Below are positions 10,815 through 45,495 of a stretch of DNA of 64,000 nucleotides, one piece after another. This DNA comes from Blastochloris viridis (lineage in GTDB: Bacteria > Pseudomonadota > Alphaproteobacteria > Rhizobiales > Xanthobacteraceae). Within the stretch, counting starts at the first letter, position 1, and each line of letters starts with the position of its first letter. The position numbers were made by a program, and so were the translations under genes. The notes below the pieces were generated by a model. It was given only the letters and a program-made list of their open reading frames with translations, did not search any database and had not been told where the DNA came from. The stretch lies in the NCBI RefSeq assembly GCF_001402875.1, contig NZ_CP012946.1, forward strand, positions 412,001 through 476,000. Direction: 5' to 3'.

Positions 10815-11906
10815 GTGAGCGCTTTGGCAGATCAAGATCAGGCGGACCACGGCCGCGACCAGCCGAACATCGAGCGGGCCGGTTCCGCCAGCGGCGGGCC
10901 GGCTTTCACCCACACGTTCGCAAACGCCGCCATCGGCGCGGCGTTCGCCCGCACCGGCAATCGGCTCGCGGTGGTGCTCGCCAATGGCGAGGTGGCGCAT
11001 CTGACGCTAGGCGAGCCGGGCGAGCCGACGCGAACGGTCGCCCACGCCGAGGCGACGCTGCACTGGCTCGCCACCGCCGATGGCGTGATCACCGGCGGCG
11101 ACGACGGGCGGGTGGTGTTCACCCCGTTCGTGGGCGCCCCGCGGCTGCTGCTGTGCGAGCCGGGCCGCTGGATCAACGCGCTGGCGTTCGAACCCGATAC
11201 CGGGCGGATCGCGGTCGCCATCGGCCGCTCGGTGCGGGTGGTGGGCGAGGGGGCCGAGCAGTCGCGGTTCGAAACCCACCCCAGCACGGTGGCGGCGCTG
11301 GCCTTCACCCCCGCTGGCGAGGCGCTGGCTGCGGCGCATTACGGCGGCGTCACGCTGCACGTGTTCGGCCGCGGCTCCCGCCTGTTCGCGCGCAAGGGCT
11401 CGATGGTGGCGGTCACCGTCAGCGCCGACGCGCGGTTCATCGTGGCGGCGGCGCAGGATCGCGAGGCGGTGACCTGGCCGGTGGCGGGCGGCGAGCCGAT
11501 GGAGATGGCGGGCTATGGCGGCAAGCCGACCTCGCTGTCGTGGGCGGGCGATGGCCGCCACCTCGCCACCAGCGGCGCCGACGGTGTCATCGTGTGGCCG
11601 TTCGACGGCCGCACCGGCCCGTTCGGCCGGCGAGCGCTGGAACTGGCACCCGAACGCAAGGAGCTGGTGACGACGGTGGCGTTCCACCCGCGCCTGCGCC
11701 GCATCGCTTACGGTTACCGGGATGGCTTCGCCGCGGTGATCGATTTCAAGGGTGAGCCGCAAACCGTGGTCGAGGCGGACGGCGAGGCGGTCGCCGCGCT
11801 GGCGTGGTCGCCGGATGGCTTGCGGCTCGCCGTCTGCGGCGAGAGCGGACGGGTCATGGTGCGGACGTGGCCAAAGCCGGGGTTGCTCAAGCGGCTGTTC
11901 GGATGA
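10815..11906 (+). CDS. WD40 repeat protein
   Basis: A 363-residue protein made of degenerate WD40 blades (for example LAFTPAGEALAAAHYGGVTLHVF, quoted in part, and LAWSPDGLRLAVCGESG). It should fold as one seven-bladed propeller, a scaffold without enzyme activity. I chose the GTG at 10815 because upstream sequence does not look coding. In Hyphomicrobiales a WD40 protein of this type often neighbours a CobW/zinc GTPase, but none is present here. Its partner is unknown. Confidence 0.75.
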   Translation: MSALADQDQADHGRDQPNIERAGSASGGPAFTHTFANAAIGAAFARTGNRLAVVLANGEVAHLTLGEPGEPTRTVAHAEATLHWLATADGVITGGDDGRVVFTPFVGAPRLLLCEPGRWINALAFEPDTGRIAVAIGRSVRVVGEGAEQSRFETHPSTVAALAFTPAGEALAAAHYGGVTLHVFGRGSRLFARKGSMVAVTVSADARFIVAAAQDREAVTWPVAGGEPMEMAGYGGKPTSLSWAGDGRHLATSGADGVIVWPFDGRTGPFGRRALELAPERKELVTTVAFHPRLRRIAYGYRDGFAAVIDFKGEPQTVVEADGEAVAALAWSPDGLRLAVCGESGRVMVRTWPKPGLLKRLFG

Positions 11907-12213
11907 TCGTCGCCGCGCTCGCCGTCATCCTCGGGCGAGGCCTTGGCCGCGACCCGAGGATCGATGGACGGCGACGTCGGCAGGCTGCATCAACGTCCGG
12001 CAGTGTCTCAGTTTGAATTTTGGTGGCATATGGACCGAAGGCACAGAACTGCGTTTACCGCAAGCCTGCAACTCAAAACTGCGTGTTGTAATTTTGCCAC
12101 ATTAACTATTTATTAGCGCGCCCTAGATCGTAATGGATCGATCTGATTGGCGCCTTCGCGCACAAATGGTAACGACCGCGTGAACTTATGGCGCCATAAC
12201 TGGAGGATGGGAT
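11907..12213. other. intergenic region leading into an AT-rich island
   Basis: The first 90 bases have the local high GC. From about 12010 composition becomes AT-rich (runs such as TTAACTATTTATTAG), marking the left edge of a foreign-looking island. A 10-bp palindrome ATGGCGCCAT lies at 12188-12197. No gene was recognised. Confidence 0.45.
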
Positions 12214-12405
12214 ATGGAGCTTAGCGCATTGGTCGTAAGAGATGAGCGCGCTCCTTGCGCGACCCTTAGAGGATATTTCGCCCAGCAGATCACTGCTGGG
12301 AAGCGCCCCAGCTACGGCTATCCAGAGAACCATCTTCCTAAGACCACGGCCGATTCCATGGATATGGAGACTGGGTTTATAACTGCTGCCCACAAGGGGA
12401 AGTAG
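12214..12405 (+). CDS. unrecognised 63-residue protein
   Basis: The ATG at 12214 is preceded by GGAGGATGGGAT, a good ribosome binding site. The product is hydrophilic, with no membrane span; it has one Cys (residue 15) and a polar tail rich in T, D, K and H. Its base composition is lower in GC than the flanks. The coding region contains a perfect inverted repeat, CCCAGCAG-ATCA-CTGCTGGG (12281-12300), so the transcript is structured. It ends 10 bases before a 13-bp hairpin and 54 bases before the next gene. I do not recognise the family. It could be a small regulator, an antitoxin-like partner of the next gene, or a structured RNA mistaken for a gene. Confidence 0.5.
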   Translation: MELSALVVRDERAPCATLRGYFAQQITAGKRPSYGYPENHLPKTTADSMDMETGFITAAHKGK

Positions 12406-12415
12406 ATTTTTCCTG

Positions 12416-12453
12416 AGCCCCGCGCTACACGAGTGATTCTGTAGCGCGGGGCT
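12416..12453 (+). other. perfect 13-bp hairpin between two island genes
   Basis: AGCCCCGCGCTAC (12416-12428) pairs exactly with GTAGCGCGGGGCT (12441-12453) around a 12-base loop. It has no T-run on either strand, so it is not a standard intrinsic terminator. It ends 6 bases before the ATG at 12460. The G-rich 3' arm could hide the ribosome binding site, or the stem could be an RNA processing site. Confidence 0.6.
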
Positions 12454-12459
12454 GTTGGG

Positions 12460-13017
12460 ATGCGTATTTACAAAGGCTTCCTGGACGCAATTCGGGATGA
12501 AGAAGTTTTCATCGACGAGTTTAAGAAATTTGCCGGAGAAGTCTTCGGGGCTTGTCGGCTTTATCCAGTAGTTTCAGATGCCCGATTAATTGAGGTTAGG
12601 GGCGCTTGGCTGCACGACATTAAGCGCGTCGGAGATCATGAGCCAAACTTAACTAAAGGCTTGGATCACTTTAAGCAGTGCGGTCATTTGAGCTTTTGGA
12701 TTAGACGATTGTCGCCAGTAGTCGAGGCGACTGATGTAAAATCAGACATTGCAGACGCAGTGGGTTACGACCTGTCGCCAACAGAGATCGAGCTTCGCGA
12801 TATGCTGTTCGGATACGCTAACGAGTATTTGGCGTTCGATTACTGTTTCATGATATGCAAGTATTACGAGGCAAATCGCGATGATTATCCGTCCGAATTT
12901 GCAAGGAATCTTGTGGTTTCGCGCGATTATTATAAGATTATGCGTCAATTTTTGAAATATAAAAGCGTATCGCCTCATGCAATGCAGTTAATATATAGAT
13001 CTCTGTTTATGCACTAG
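12460..13017 (+). CDS. unrecognised 185-residue protein of foreign composition
   Basis: A strongly AT-rich gene in a GC-rich neighbourhood, using TTA, ATA and AGA codons that nearby genes avoid, which points to horizontal transfer. The protein is soluble and mixed in charge, with aromatic-rich helices near the C-terminus (YANEYLAFDYCFMICKYYEA). No catalytic motif or signal peptide was recognised. Its last codons overlap, tail to tail, the end of a decayed transposase gene, so the natural C-terminus may have been changed by that insertion. The start sits just after a 13-bp hairpin. Defence or toxin functions are possible for such islands, but nothing in the sequence shows one. Confidence 0.6.
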   Translation: MRIYKGFLDAIRDEEVFIDEFKKFAGEVFGACRLYPVVSDARLIEVRGAWLHDIKRVGDHEPNLTKGLDHFKQCGHLSFWIRRLSPVVEATDVKSDIADAVGYDLSPTEIELRDMLFGYANEYLAFDYCFMICKYYEANRDDYPSEFARNLVVSRDYYKIMRQFLKYKSVSPHAMQLIYRSLFMH

Positions 13018-42847: not shown

Positions 42848-43030
42848 GCATAGTTCCAGCATCCCGGAACACGGTGAAAATCCGTGGCGGACCCGCCGCT
42901 GTAATCGGGGACGCCGCTTCGACGGCGAGAGCCAGCCACTGACGGGGACCACCCGGTCGGGAAGGCGCGAGGCGGCGGTCGATCCGAGAGCCAGAAGACC
43001 TGCTGGAACGTCAGATCGGGCGAAATCCGA
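42848..43030 (+). promoter_or_regulatory. cobalamin riboswitch
   Basis: The conserved cobalamin aptamer order is clear. It runs ACGGTGAAAATCCGTG (stem P3/P4 region), GCGGACCCGCCGCTGTAAT, GAGAGCCAGCCACTGACG (with the GCCACTG box), then GGGAAGGCG and GAGAGCCAGAAGACCTGC closing the aptamer. Ends are approximate. Downstream, CGGCAG (43044) and CTGCCG (43075) can form a hairpin that may be the expression platform. The first gene after it is a 48-residue peptide gene, not a B12 synthesis or transport gene. Bound cobalamin normally lowers expression. Confidence 0.93.
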
Positions 43031-43111
43031 TGGCAAAGGGTTTCGGCAGTCCCGCGTGCGCTTGCGCGCGGCCGCTGCCGAACGCCCGGTCGCCAACATG
43101 GAGCCCGAGGA

Positions 43112-43258
43112 ATGGACCACACCGCCACTGCCACCACCCGCCCCGCCGCCGCTCAGCCGGCGCCGCGCCCCGCCGTCATCGCCATCCGCAAGAGTTGCGA
43201 CAGCGAGGGCACCGGCCTGTCGCACTTCGTGCTGATGGACAAAGAGGCTTTGAAATGA
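43112..43258 (+). CDS. cbpA: RiPP precursor peptide, CbpA-like
   Basis: A 48-residue peptide. The first 20 residues are low-complexity (Thr, Ala, Pro); the second half, RKSCDSEGTGLSHFVLMD followed by KEALK, looks like a conserved core with one Cys at position 29. GAGG lies close before the ATG. Its stop overlaps the ATG of the radical SAM gene (ATGA), which fixes the reading frame and implies coupled synthesis. It lies about 80 bases after the cobalamin riboswitch. I recall a protein family pair called CbpA (modified peptide precursor) and CbpB (radical SAM enzyme) with just this context; the name needs checking. There is no obvious GG cleavage site. A competing frame from ATG 43099 lacks the overlap and is rejected. 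Confidence 0.75.
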   Translation: MDHTATATTRPAAAQPAPRPAVIAIRKSCDSEGTGLSHFVLMDKEALK

Positions 43259-44679
43259 ACGCGCCGTTCGATCCGACGGCGCTCGGGACGGCCCCCTCGC
43301 GGGGCCGTTTCGTCAACAGCGGCATGGGGCCTCAGCTTCAGCCCTACGACATCGGCCACCCCACCCATATCGCGCTGATCTCGCCCGACACCGCGTTCTG
43401 GGCGCTGATCGCCAAGGACCAGCTCGCCGACACCCTGGCCGGCGGCGCGCTGCTCGAAGGCTATCGCGCCAGCGCCGACGCCTTCGGCCGCGAGATGGCG
43501 GCGCTCAGGTTCGGGCTCAAGCCCTCGGCGGTCTATGTCAACGCCACCGAGCGCTGCAACCTCAACTGCACCTATTGCTACATCCCGGCCGAGATGCGGC
43601 GGGACGGCACCGACATGGATGCGCCGACCCTGCTCGACGCACTGTCGCGGCTCGAGCGCTATTTCCGCCGCCACATGCCGGAGGGGCGCAAACCGCAGAT
43701 CATCTTCCACGGCGCCGAGCCGATGATCGCGCGGGACGCCATCTTCCAGGGCATCGACGCCTTCAAGGACCGCTTCCGCTTCGGGGTGCAGACCAACGCC
43801 ACGTTGCTCGACGACAAGGCTATCGCCTTCCTTACCAGCCGCGGCGTCGGCATCGGCCTGTCGCTCGACGCCCCGGTCGCGGCGATCGCCGACCGCACCC
43901 GCGCGAACTGGAGCGGCGCCGGGGTCTATAACAAGGTGGTCGAGGCGATCGAACGGCTGAAGGGCTATCCGGCCTTCAACGTCATCTGCACCATGAGTTC
44001 GCAGAACCTGGACCAGCTCGATGCCATGGTCGAGTTCCTGCACGCCCGCGAGGTGCCGGCATGCATGCTCAACGTCATCCGCTGCACGCTGCCCGGCGCG
44101 CGCACGGTGCGGCCCGACGATGCGCCGCTGGCCGAGGCGTTCATCGCCGCGCTGGAGCGCAGCCACGCGCTCTATCGCCAAACCGGCCGCAAGCTGGTGG
44201 TGGCGAACTTCGCCAACATCCTGATCGGCATCCTGGCGCCGACCGCGCGGCGGCTGATGTGCGACATCTCGCCGTGCGGCGGCGGGCGGGCGTTCTTCGC
44301 GTTGGTGCCGAACGGCGATCTGTTCCCGTGCAGCGAGTTCATCGGCCTGCCTGAGTTCAAGGGCGGCAACCTGTTTGCCGACGACATCGACGAGGTGCTG
44401 GCGCAGCCGGCCTTCACCAAGGTCTCCGGCCGCAAGGTCGAGGACATCGCGCCGTGCCGGGGCTGTGCCATCCGCCATTTCTGCGGCTCGCCGTGCCCGG
44501 CCGAGGCGCACGAGATGAACGGCGGCATGGATCGCACCGGCGCCTATTGCGAGTTCTACGAGGAGCAGACGCGCTACGCCTTCCGGCTGATCGCCGAGGG
44601 CCGCCACGCCGACTTCCTGTGGGACGGCTGGGACGACGGCACCGAGACGGTGTTCGACGCAGCTCGGCTGGGCTGTTGA
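43255..44679 (+). CDS. cbpB: peptide-modifying radical SAM/SPASM enzyme, CbpB-like
   Basis: A 474-residue radical SAM maturase. The SAM-cluster motif CNLNCTYC (Cys 101, 105, 108) follows a 100-residue N-terminal region that could bind the leader peptide. The barrel continues with FHGAEPM and GVQTNAT. The C-terminal SPASM region has many Cys (336, 341, 359, 401, 404, 410, 414, 432), enough for two auxiliary 4Fe-4S clusters as in sulfur-to-alpha-carbon or C-C crosslinking maturases; the final residue is also Cys. There is no B12-binding domain, so the cobalamin link is regulatory only. It is translationally coupled to the precursor gene, its likely substrate. No protease or exporter gene is adjacent. 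Confidence 0.9.
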   Translation: MNAPFDPTALGTAPSRGRFVNSGMGPQLQPYDIGHPTHIALISPDTAFWALIAKDQLADTLAGGALLEGYRASADAFGREMAALRFGLKPSAVYVNATERCNLNCTYCYIPAEMRRDGTDMDAPTLLDALSRLERYFRRHMPEGRKPQIIFHGAEPMIARDAIFQGIDAFKDRFRFGVQTNATLLDDKAIAFLTSRGVGIGLSLDAPVAAIADRTRANWSGAGVYNKVVEAIERLKGYPAFNVICTMSSQNLDQLDAMVEFLHAREVPACMLNVIRCTLPGARTVRPDDAPLAEAFIAALERSHALYRQTGRKLVVANFANILIGILAPTARRLMCDISPCGGGRAFFALVPNGDLFPCSEFIGLPEFKGGNLFADDIDEVLAQPAFTKVSGRKVEDIAPCRGCAIRHFCGSPCPAEAHEMNGGMDRTGAYCEFYEEQTRYAFRLIAEGRHADFLWDGWDDGTETVFDAARLGC

Positions 44680-44690
44680 CGTCCGCCGCA

Positions 44691-44790
44691 TCATCCCGGC
44701 CGAAGCGCAGCTTCGTGCCGGGATCGGGTGCGGCAGGGAAACGATACTGAAAACGGTCCCGGCTCGGCGCTTCGCGCCGTCCGGGATGGA
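44691..44790. repeat. REP-like repeat, copy A
   Basis: CATCCCGGCCGAAGCGCAG...GCCGGGATCGGGTGCGG...GATACTGAAAACGGTCCCGG is about 80% identical to 45382-45495 in its first 75 bases. Palindromic; the two copies flank the gene at 44911. Confidence 0.7.
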
Positions 44791-45381: not shown

Positions 45382-45495
45382 TCATCCCGGCCGAGCGCAG
45401 CGAGAGCCGGGATCGGGTGCGGAAGGGGCGCGATACTGAAAACGATCCCGGCCAAGCGCCGGATGCGGGGCATCCGGCGCCCGGCCGGGACGATG
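45382..45495. repeat. REP-like repeat, copy B
   Basis: It matches 44691-44790 through CATCCCGGCCGAGCGCAG, GCCGGGATCGGGTGCGG and GATACTGAAAACGATCCCGG, then ends with a different palindrome (GCGCCGGATGCGGGGCATCCGGCGC). Confidence 0.7.

Follow-up and report, generated by a model that had tools for sequence, protein, structure and literature searches.

A cobalamin-riboswitch-linked gene pair for a short peptide and its probable radical SAM/SPASM maturase, with a possible role in cobalt handling

The window, a stretch of 64,000 nucleotides from the genome of Blastochloris viridis (3.72 Mb, single contig), contains a cobalamin riboswitch aptamer followed by a gene for a short peptide, cbpA, and a gene for a radical SAM/SPASM protein, cbpB (Table 1). 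A cmscan search matched the aptamer to RF00174 with 72.8 bits (E 5e-16), which exceeds the gathering score of 31.5. This is the only cobalamin riboswitch match of Rfam in the 64 kb and one of six in a scan of the whole host genome. The preliminary description of the locus had claimed a full cobalamin aptamer and had named rejection by a covariance model as grounds for doubt. The model accepts the aptamer, and its core is enclosed by an 8-bp stem, GTTCCAGC/GCTGGAAC (42853-42860 / 43002-43009), that we read from the sequence and that the model does not match. The word "full" holds only in part, however, in that the alignment covers model positions 47-167 of 189; the host's other five riboswitches match positions 1-189. 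As described, the peptide gene and the maturase gene overlap by ATGA (TTGAAATGA / ATGAACGCG).

Table 1 Features of the cbpAB locus and other cobalamin-riboswitch regions of the host
Feature	Position	Strand	Remarks
Cobalamin riboswitch aptamer	42853..43009	+	Rfam core 42866-42999 plus 8-bp enclosing stem
Short conserved hairpin	43021..43045	+	CGAAATCC / loop GATGGCAAA / GGGTTTCG; read from sequence
Longer hairpin	43042..43082	+	Predicted by RNAfold of the leader; competes for the 3' arm of the short hairpin
cbpA, precursor peptide, 48 aa	43112..43258	+	TIGR04164; conserved part 43175-43249
cbpB, radical SAM/SPASM peptide maturase, 474 aa	43255..44679	+	TIGR04163; CNLNCTYC cluster motif, residues 101-108
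Host cobalamin-riboswitch regions	G000:C1:2328001-2362000 (L059, L060); 1386001-1404000 (L061)		

Both proteins are members of their NCBIfam families by score. CbpA reaches 54 bits with TIGR04164 over residues 22-46 (cut-off 35 bits), CbpB reaches 713 bits with TIGR04163 (cut-off 375 bits), and CbpB also exceeds the Pfam cut-offs for Radical_SAM and SPASM. The aptamer, the peptide gene and the maturase gene are thus confirmed, and the names CbpA and CbpB, which the preliminary description had given, proved correct; the first interpretation of the locus as a whole is partly supported. The host has two weaker TIGR04163 matches, neither of which lies at any of the six riboswitches, and the co-occurrence of riboswitch and cbpAB is therefore not a matter of chance. 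A weakly DUF3592-like open reading frame and, on the other strand, panD lie 3' of cbpB; neither seems to belong to the cbpAB unit. The DUF3592-like frame is flanked by a 54-nt direct repeat (44717-44770 and 45406-45459, 689 nt apart), the copies of which are 85% identical.

The family is already catalogued in NCBIfam as TIGR04164 cobo_pep (CbpA) and TIGR04163 rSAM_cobopep (CbpB), in tables that hold names only. Searches with the family names and accessions found no paper in the open-access literature, which omits most subscription papers. Broader open-access searches yielded no description of the product or role of CbpA/CbpB among the matches listed, which agrees with the preliminary description. 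Matches to "cbpa" in PMC5682303, considered as a possible literature record, turned out to be journal DOIs. What is new here is the comparative picture of gene pairing, core conservation, B12 linkage and gene order.

A scan of genome contigs provided a first set of 39 CbpB loci in 38 genomes of Alpha-, Beta-, Gamma- and Deltaproteobacteria, Planctomycetota, Nitrospirota, Nitrospinota, Chloroflexi, Verrucomicrobiota and Bryobacterales. The nearest named relative among the matches is Blastochloris sulfoviridis, with 90% identity in CbpB. A CbpA-like peptide is encoded 5' of cbpB in 37 of the 39 loci; the other two, L042 and L044, run off the ends of their contigs and were excluded from the totals for pairing and riboswitches. 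A second set comprised 51 new loci from the family of the Propionivibrio locus L039 (19 loci), the phylum of L012 (3) and the phylum of L024 (29). A regular expression recovered the peptide in 50 of these, and the peptide of L155 was read by eye. With a slightly wider pattern, cbpA stands just upstream of cbpB in all 89 intact loci, window included. The preliminary description had allowed for maturase homologues that lack a peptide gene; none turned up among the 88 intact relatives, all of which carry it directly upstream. These counts omit repeats of first-set loci (L049, L052-L054, L056 and L057), short loci (L046 and L063-L130) and four loci with short flanks (L050, L051, L055 and L058), each of which has a peptide and its own riboswitch.

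Within taxonomic groups, carriers are scattered: 11 of the 398 sampled genomes of the host's phylum, 23 of 249 in the family of L039, 5 of 343 in the phylum of L012 and 32 of 345 in the phylum of L024. Two of the last 32 were already among the loci collected, and G1452 and the second copy in G1470, both fragments, were excluded to leave 29 new loci. Among 8000 candidate proteins scored, 2339 matched at E 1e-30 or better, some of which may not be CbpB. Azoarcus sp. Aa7 carries two copies of cbpAB (L015 and L018), which are located on separate contigs and both have a riboswitch of their own.

Linkage to a cobalamin riboswitch takes two forms in the genomes compared. An own riboswitch precedes 81 of the 89 intact pairs, window included, and the other eight lie inside co-directional runs of cob/cbi genes with a same-strand riboswitch upstream. 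In the first set, RF00174 matches placed through contig coordinates revealed an own same-strand upstream riboswitch in 33 of 39 loci. These were confirmed with R1, a covariance model trained on 21 cbpA aptamers; as 20 of those come from the first set, R1 is an independent check for 13 loci only. The weakest aptamer, L021, scores 26.9 bits by R1 and 51.9 by RF00174. The remainder consists of the two cut loci and of L023, L029, L031 and L036, which lie in cob/cbi runs where the same-strand riboswitch precedes cbpB by 3.3 to 9.6 kb. Among the 51 second-set loci, R1 detected an own riboswitch in 47; the other four, L150, L152, L155 and L156, again belong to cob gene runs that are preceded by a riboswitch on the same strand. 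In L150 and L155, this riboswitch is about 10 kb upstream, outside the fetched stretch, and is the only one found in either genome. Judged by strand and order, the cob/cbi runs that hold cbpAB are probably single operons. Pairs lack a private switch only if their gene run is preceded by one, which is good evidence that B12 control matters for cbpAB. At least one cobalamin riboswitch is present in all 38 first-set genomes, all 51 second-set genomes and the host. Counted apart from these totals is the single exception encountered, L062, an annotated plasmid pair of Methylovirgula sp. HY1, for which neither R1 nor Rfam detected a cobalamin riboswitch. On this plasmid, pHY1, narHJI lies about 12 kb upstream of cbpAB (L062 14843-16422) and pqqADE about 2 kb downstream.

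The preliminary description had proposed that the product is made when cobalamin is scarce. The host's other riboswitches precede genes for the anaerobic ribonucleotide reductase NrdD/NrdG2, the B12-independent methionine synthase MetE and a BtuB-like receptor that scores below its family cut-off; two more stand upstream of a run with CbiM, CobW, CobN and a further protein. All of these genes fit a need at low B12, which favors an OFF switch for cbpAB as well. Production at low B12 is likewise favored by the sharing of cob gene runs with cbpAB in other genomes, and the proposal is therefore the preferred inference from the gene contexts. The protein beside CbiM in one host region (L060 1163-1996) has no NCBIfam match at E 1e-20.

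Between aptamer and cbpA, the expression platforms of most relatives look like terminator-type switches similar to those of neighboring riboswitches. A short hairpin with covarying arms and a conserved GG-N-AA loop was recognized in 52 of 71 distinct platforms, and its 3' arm coincides with the 5' arm of a terminator in 43 of 71; both counts come from a permissive script, and several of the hairpins are chance stems on reading. The loop is present in 82 of 90 platforms, a number that includes L049-L058 before identical platforms were merged. When the analysis was anchored on the loop, native arms paired over at least 6 bases in 47 of 59 distinct platforms, compared with 31% for arms swapped between loci. 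Competition between hairpin and terminator was found in 62 of 71 cbpA platforms, in 15 of the 19 terminator-bearing members of a comparison group of 20 cobalamin riboswitches located elsewhere in these genomes, and in about 35% of shuffled upstream sequences. A cobalamin ON switch, in which B12 favors read-through, had been considered on the basis of this competition and was dropped, since the competition is also common in the comparison group (15 of 19). Pairing with the L5 loop was possible in 54 of 73 cases versus 35.6 after shuffling, a difference confounded by clade. Most relatives have an intrinsic terminator, whereas in the window no U-run follows the longer hairpin. The short hairpin is present there, and the RNAfold prediction pairs part of the ribosome-site region, so that control in the window may be exerted on translation. 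Riboswitches unlinked to cbpA (L182-L201) mostly carry a G-rich GCTGGGTGCAATCC-like segment in the terminator-competing stretch, in place of which cbpA riboswitches have GATGGyAAAGGG-like loops.

A comparison of precursor cores across genomes, as advised in the preliminary description, disclosed one motif, R-x2-C-x5-7-G-L-[SA]-H-[YF], shared by all 72 distinct cores from the 89 intact loci. All 72 cores share the Arg at Cys-3, the Cys and, within GL[SA]H, the Gly, Leu and His; the search pattern demanded the Gly, the His and a Cys shortly before, and no intact locus failed it. Ser of GL[SA]H is replaced by Ala in one core and Tyr by Phe in five, and an Asp is mostly conserved. The distance from the motif Gly to the C-terminus is 12 to 14 residues in 80 of 89 loci. 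The conserved C-terminal part contains exactly one Cys in 89 of 89, and the entire 48-residue peptide of the window has only this one. The N-terminal part varies freely across relatives. PQQ and mycofactocin are cofactors that arise by conversion of conserved precursor peptides. Such a fixed core, maintained across phyla, resembles these cofactor or housekeeping peptides more than it does bacteriocins, and the combination of a near-invariant core with a radical SAM/SPASM enzyme is common to both systems and cbpAB. Unlike the PQQ and mycofactocin pathways, cbpAB showed no recurring neighbor for further processing, by eye or by ORF clustering, and it is under cobalamin-riboswitch control.

The preliminary description had also placed the riboswitch at this locus instead of before a B12 gene. 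This view is too narrow, because 20 of 90 relatives have the pair in or beside a cobalamin-biosynthesis cluster (10 of 39 in the first set and 10 of 51 in the second). In the other 70, no B12 gene cluster was found in the stretch examined, which extends up to about 10 kb on each side and less at contig ends. Neighbors were named by tblastn with 21 reference proteins from the loci, most of which had been named by NCBIfam; weak or distant B12 neighbors (L017, L159 and L169) were not counted. In seven of the eight embedded loci (L023, L031, L036, L150, L152, L155 and L156), the gene 3' of cbpB encodes a CbiX-like cobaltochelatase, assigned by PF01903 in the six tested and by homology to L036 in L023, whose protein is below the cut-off of the NCBIfam chelatase models matched. 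In the eighth, L029, this position is occupied by the cobalt transporter gene cbiM.

Two gene orders account for the CbiX-adjacent loci. L023, L031 and L036 have the order cbiF-cbpA-cbpB-cbiX, and L152, L155 and L156 have cbiC-cbpA-cbpB-cbiX-cbiM; L150 is alike, with CbiC read by eye only. The latter order is extended in L155 and L156 by cobB 5' of cbiC (cobB-cbiC-cbpA-cbpB-cbiX-cbiM); in L152, tblastn found cobA and no cobB. Pairs with their own switch can also adjoin B12 genes, though with other neighbors, which speaks against a fixed link to the chelatase. In L039 and L149, cobT lies 3' of the pair, followed by cbiMNQ with a second riboswitch; L013 and L147 have bluB 3' of the pair; and in L010 and L012, the pair diverges from a cob cluster with its own switch on the other strand. 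In a FastTree phylogeny of the 89 CbpB sequences, the embedded state requires 5 changes, at least 3 by the starred branches, and copies with their own riboswitch are nested among embedded ones. Adjacency to cobalt genes is thus confined to few lineages, in about two independent arrangements, and is suggestive only. In Aromatoleum evansii (L035), the gene 3' of cbpB on the other strand (11420-13000, minus strand) encodes a presumably trimethylamine-methyltransferase-like protein, to go by its sequence.

Dependence of cbpAB on one chelatase type was considered and found no support. Among the 39 first-set carriers, CobQ is present in 32, CbiD in 23 and CobN over the cut-off in 6; in five carrier genomes, all of them MAGs, none of the three was found. 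In the host, late cobalt insertion is the task of CobN, and CobW is available as well, so that CbpAB is not tied to CbiX in general.

The predicted fold of CbpB is closest, among solved structures, to CteB, and the whole predicted model aligns with CteB from residue 26. The N-terminal 70-residue domain, examined as a candidate leader-binding domain (RRE), has when taken alone a predicted b-b-b-a-a topology and no PDB match at E 0.001. In excerpts of PMC8326336, CteB is a thioether-forming maturase that acts on a conserved, probably non-antimicrobial peptide. Ranthipeptides have a thioether from Cys to a non-alpha carbon, and cbpAB offers the invariant Cys together with a CteB-like predicted fold. 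We infer that CbpB modifies this Cys, most simply by forming one thioether. The likeness to the SCIFF ranthipeptide system CteA/CteB is otherwise limited. SCIFF peptides have six cysteines in 45 residues, whereas the conserved part of CbpA has one; cbpAB is controlled by B12 riboswitches; and its named carriers, among them Proteobacteria, Planctomycetota and Nitrospirota, include no Clostridia.

These findings suggest a model in which cbpAB is a two-gene RiPP module of the cobalamin-supply regulon and the mature peptide is probably a cobalt ligand or chaperone, a reading to which we assign a probability of roughly 45%. When B12 is low, the riboswitch would permit production of CbpA and CbpB. 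CbpB, in the manner of CteB, would modify the single invariant Cys of CbpA, most simply by linking it through one thioether to a residue close by in the Cys-x5-7-Gly-Leu-Ser-His-Tyr stretch. The mature peptide would act inside the cell and deliver Co(II) for cobalt insertion. In essence, the model describes a housekeeping RiPP that serves B12 supply, with cobalt handling as its most likely, though unproved, role; the argument for cobalt is chiefly the position of the pair beside cbiX and cbiM. Gene pairing, riboswitch linkage, the conserved core and the gene orders are seen in the sequences themselves, whereas the chemistry, the site of action and the part of cobalt belong to the model. No processing or immunity gene was seen to recur near cbpAB. 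It is tempting to go further and place the RiPP in B12 biosynthesis itself, as a peptide that passes cobalt from the transporter to the cobaltochelatase for both early (CbiX) and late (CobN) insertion; we regard this extension as conceivable and more tentative than the model as a whole.

A peptide that leaves the cell could also explain B12 control. Methanobactin is a RiPP that serves the supply of a single metal, and the product of cbpAB might be its cobalt counterpart, a secreted cobaltophore or corrinoid-scavenging peptide that is exported at low B12 and re-imported via a TonB receptor. The conserved Cys and His and the mostly conserved Asp would suit such a ligand, and five loci with B12 clusters encode BtuB-like proteins, L023 within the gene run of the pair and L044, L144, L146 and L156 close by. 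However, neither inspection of 27 loci by eye nor ORF clustering of 40 and 26 loci revealed an exporter, protease or receptor that recurs at a fixed place, and we consider secretion unlikely. Generic ABC-transporter ATPases, CbiO-like ones included, cluster in nine first-set loci at varied distances. The proposed link to one metal's supply would be shared with methanobactin, whereas the maturase is a different one and the loci inspected have no recurring gene for a dedicated exporter or receptor. No client enzyme was seen by eye or by ORF clustering to recur beside the pair either, which counts against a peptide-derived cofactor or activator that bypasses a B12-dependent reaction. PQQ and mycofactocin are precedents for such a cofactor, and the host's switches at metE and nrdDG2 show that B12-independent isozymes fall under the same type of control; yet in eight loci the pair lies inside B12-biosynthesis runs, where it adjoins the cobaltochelatase or the cobalt transporter. 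A bypass seems to us as doubtful as secretion.

The remaining readings fare worse. A signal reporting B12 or cobalt status would accord with the likeness in fold of CbpB to the SCIFF maturase CteB, inasmuch as such a role has been proposed for SCIFF ranthipeptides, which a table in PMC8326336 enters under quorum sensing. The CbpA core is, however, near-constant between phyla, unlike strain-specific signals, and neither inspection nor ORF clustering pointed to a recurring receptor gene; signalling is thus improbable. The usual RiPP layout of a radical SAM/SPASM enzyme beside a short peptide and the patchy distribution in the sampled genomes would be equally natural for an orphan RiPP of bacteriocin type that acquired a B12 riboswitch by chance, but the core is conserved instead of variable and riboswitch linkage, direct or through a gene run, extends to 89 of 89 intact loci. 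We therefore hold this last account to be very improbable.

If the cobalt ligand or chaperone model is true, the B12 pathway gains a ribosomal peptide as a component, and a family that occurs in many phyla and is catalogued though unexplained acquires a testable role. With its conserved core, its one-enzyme maturase and the option of a riboswitch reporter, the system lends itself readily to experiment. The model touches on the live question of how scarce cobalt reaches the corrin ring when other metals compete with it, for which CobW is the worked example in an excerpt of PMC7689651. There, CobW and the His-rich tail of CbiX-L are presented as delivering cobalt to chelatases for corrin metalation, and supply of Co(II) for this reaction is the role proposed here for CbpA. 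CobW is a GTPase and the CbiX-L tail a protein domain, whereas CbpA would be a small modified peptide; in B. viridis, CobW and CbpAB are present together.
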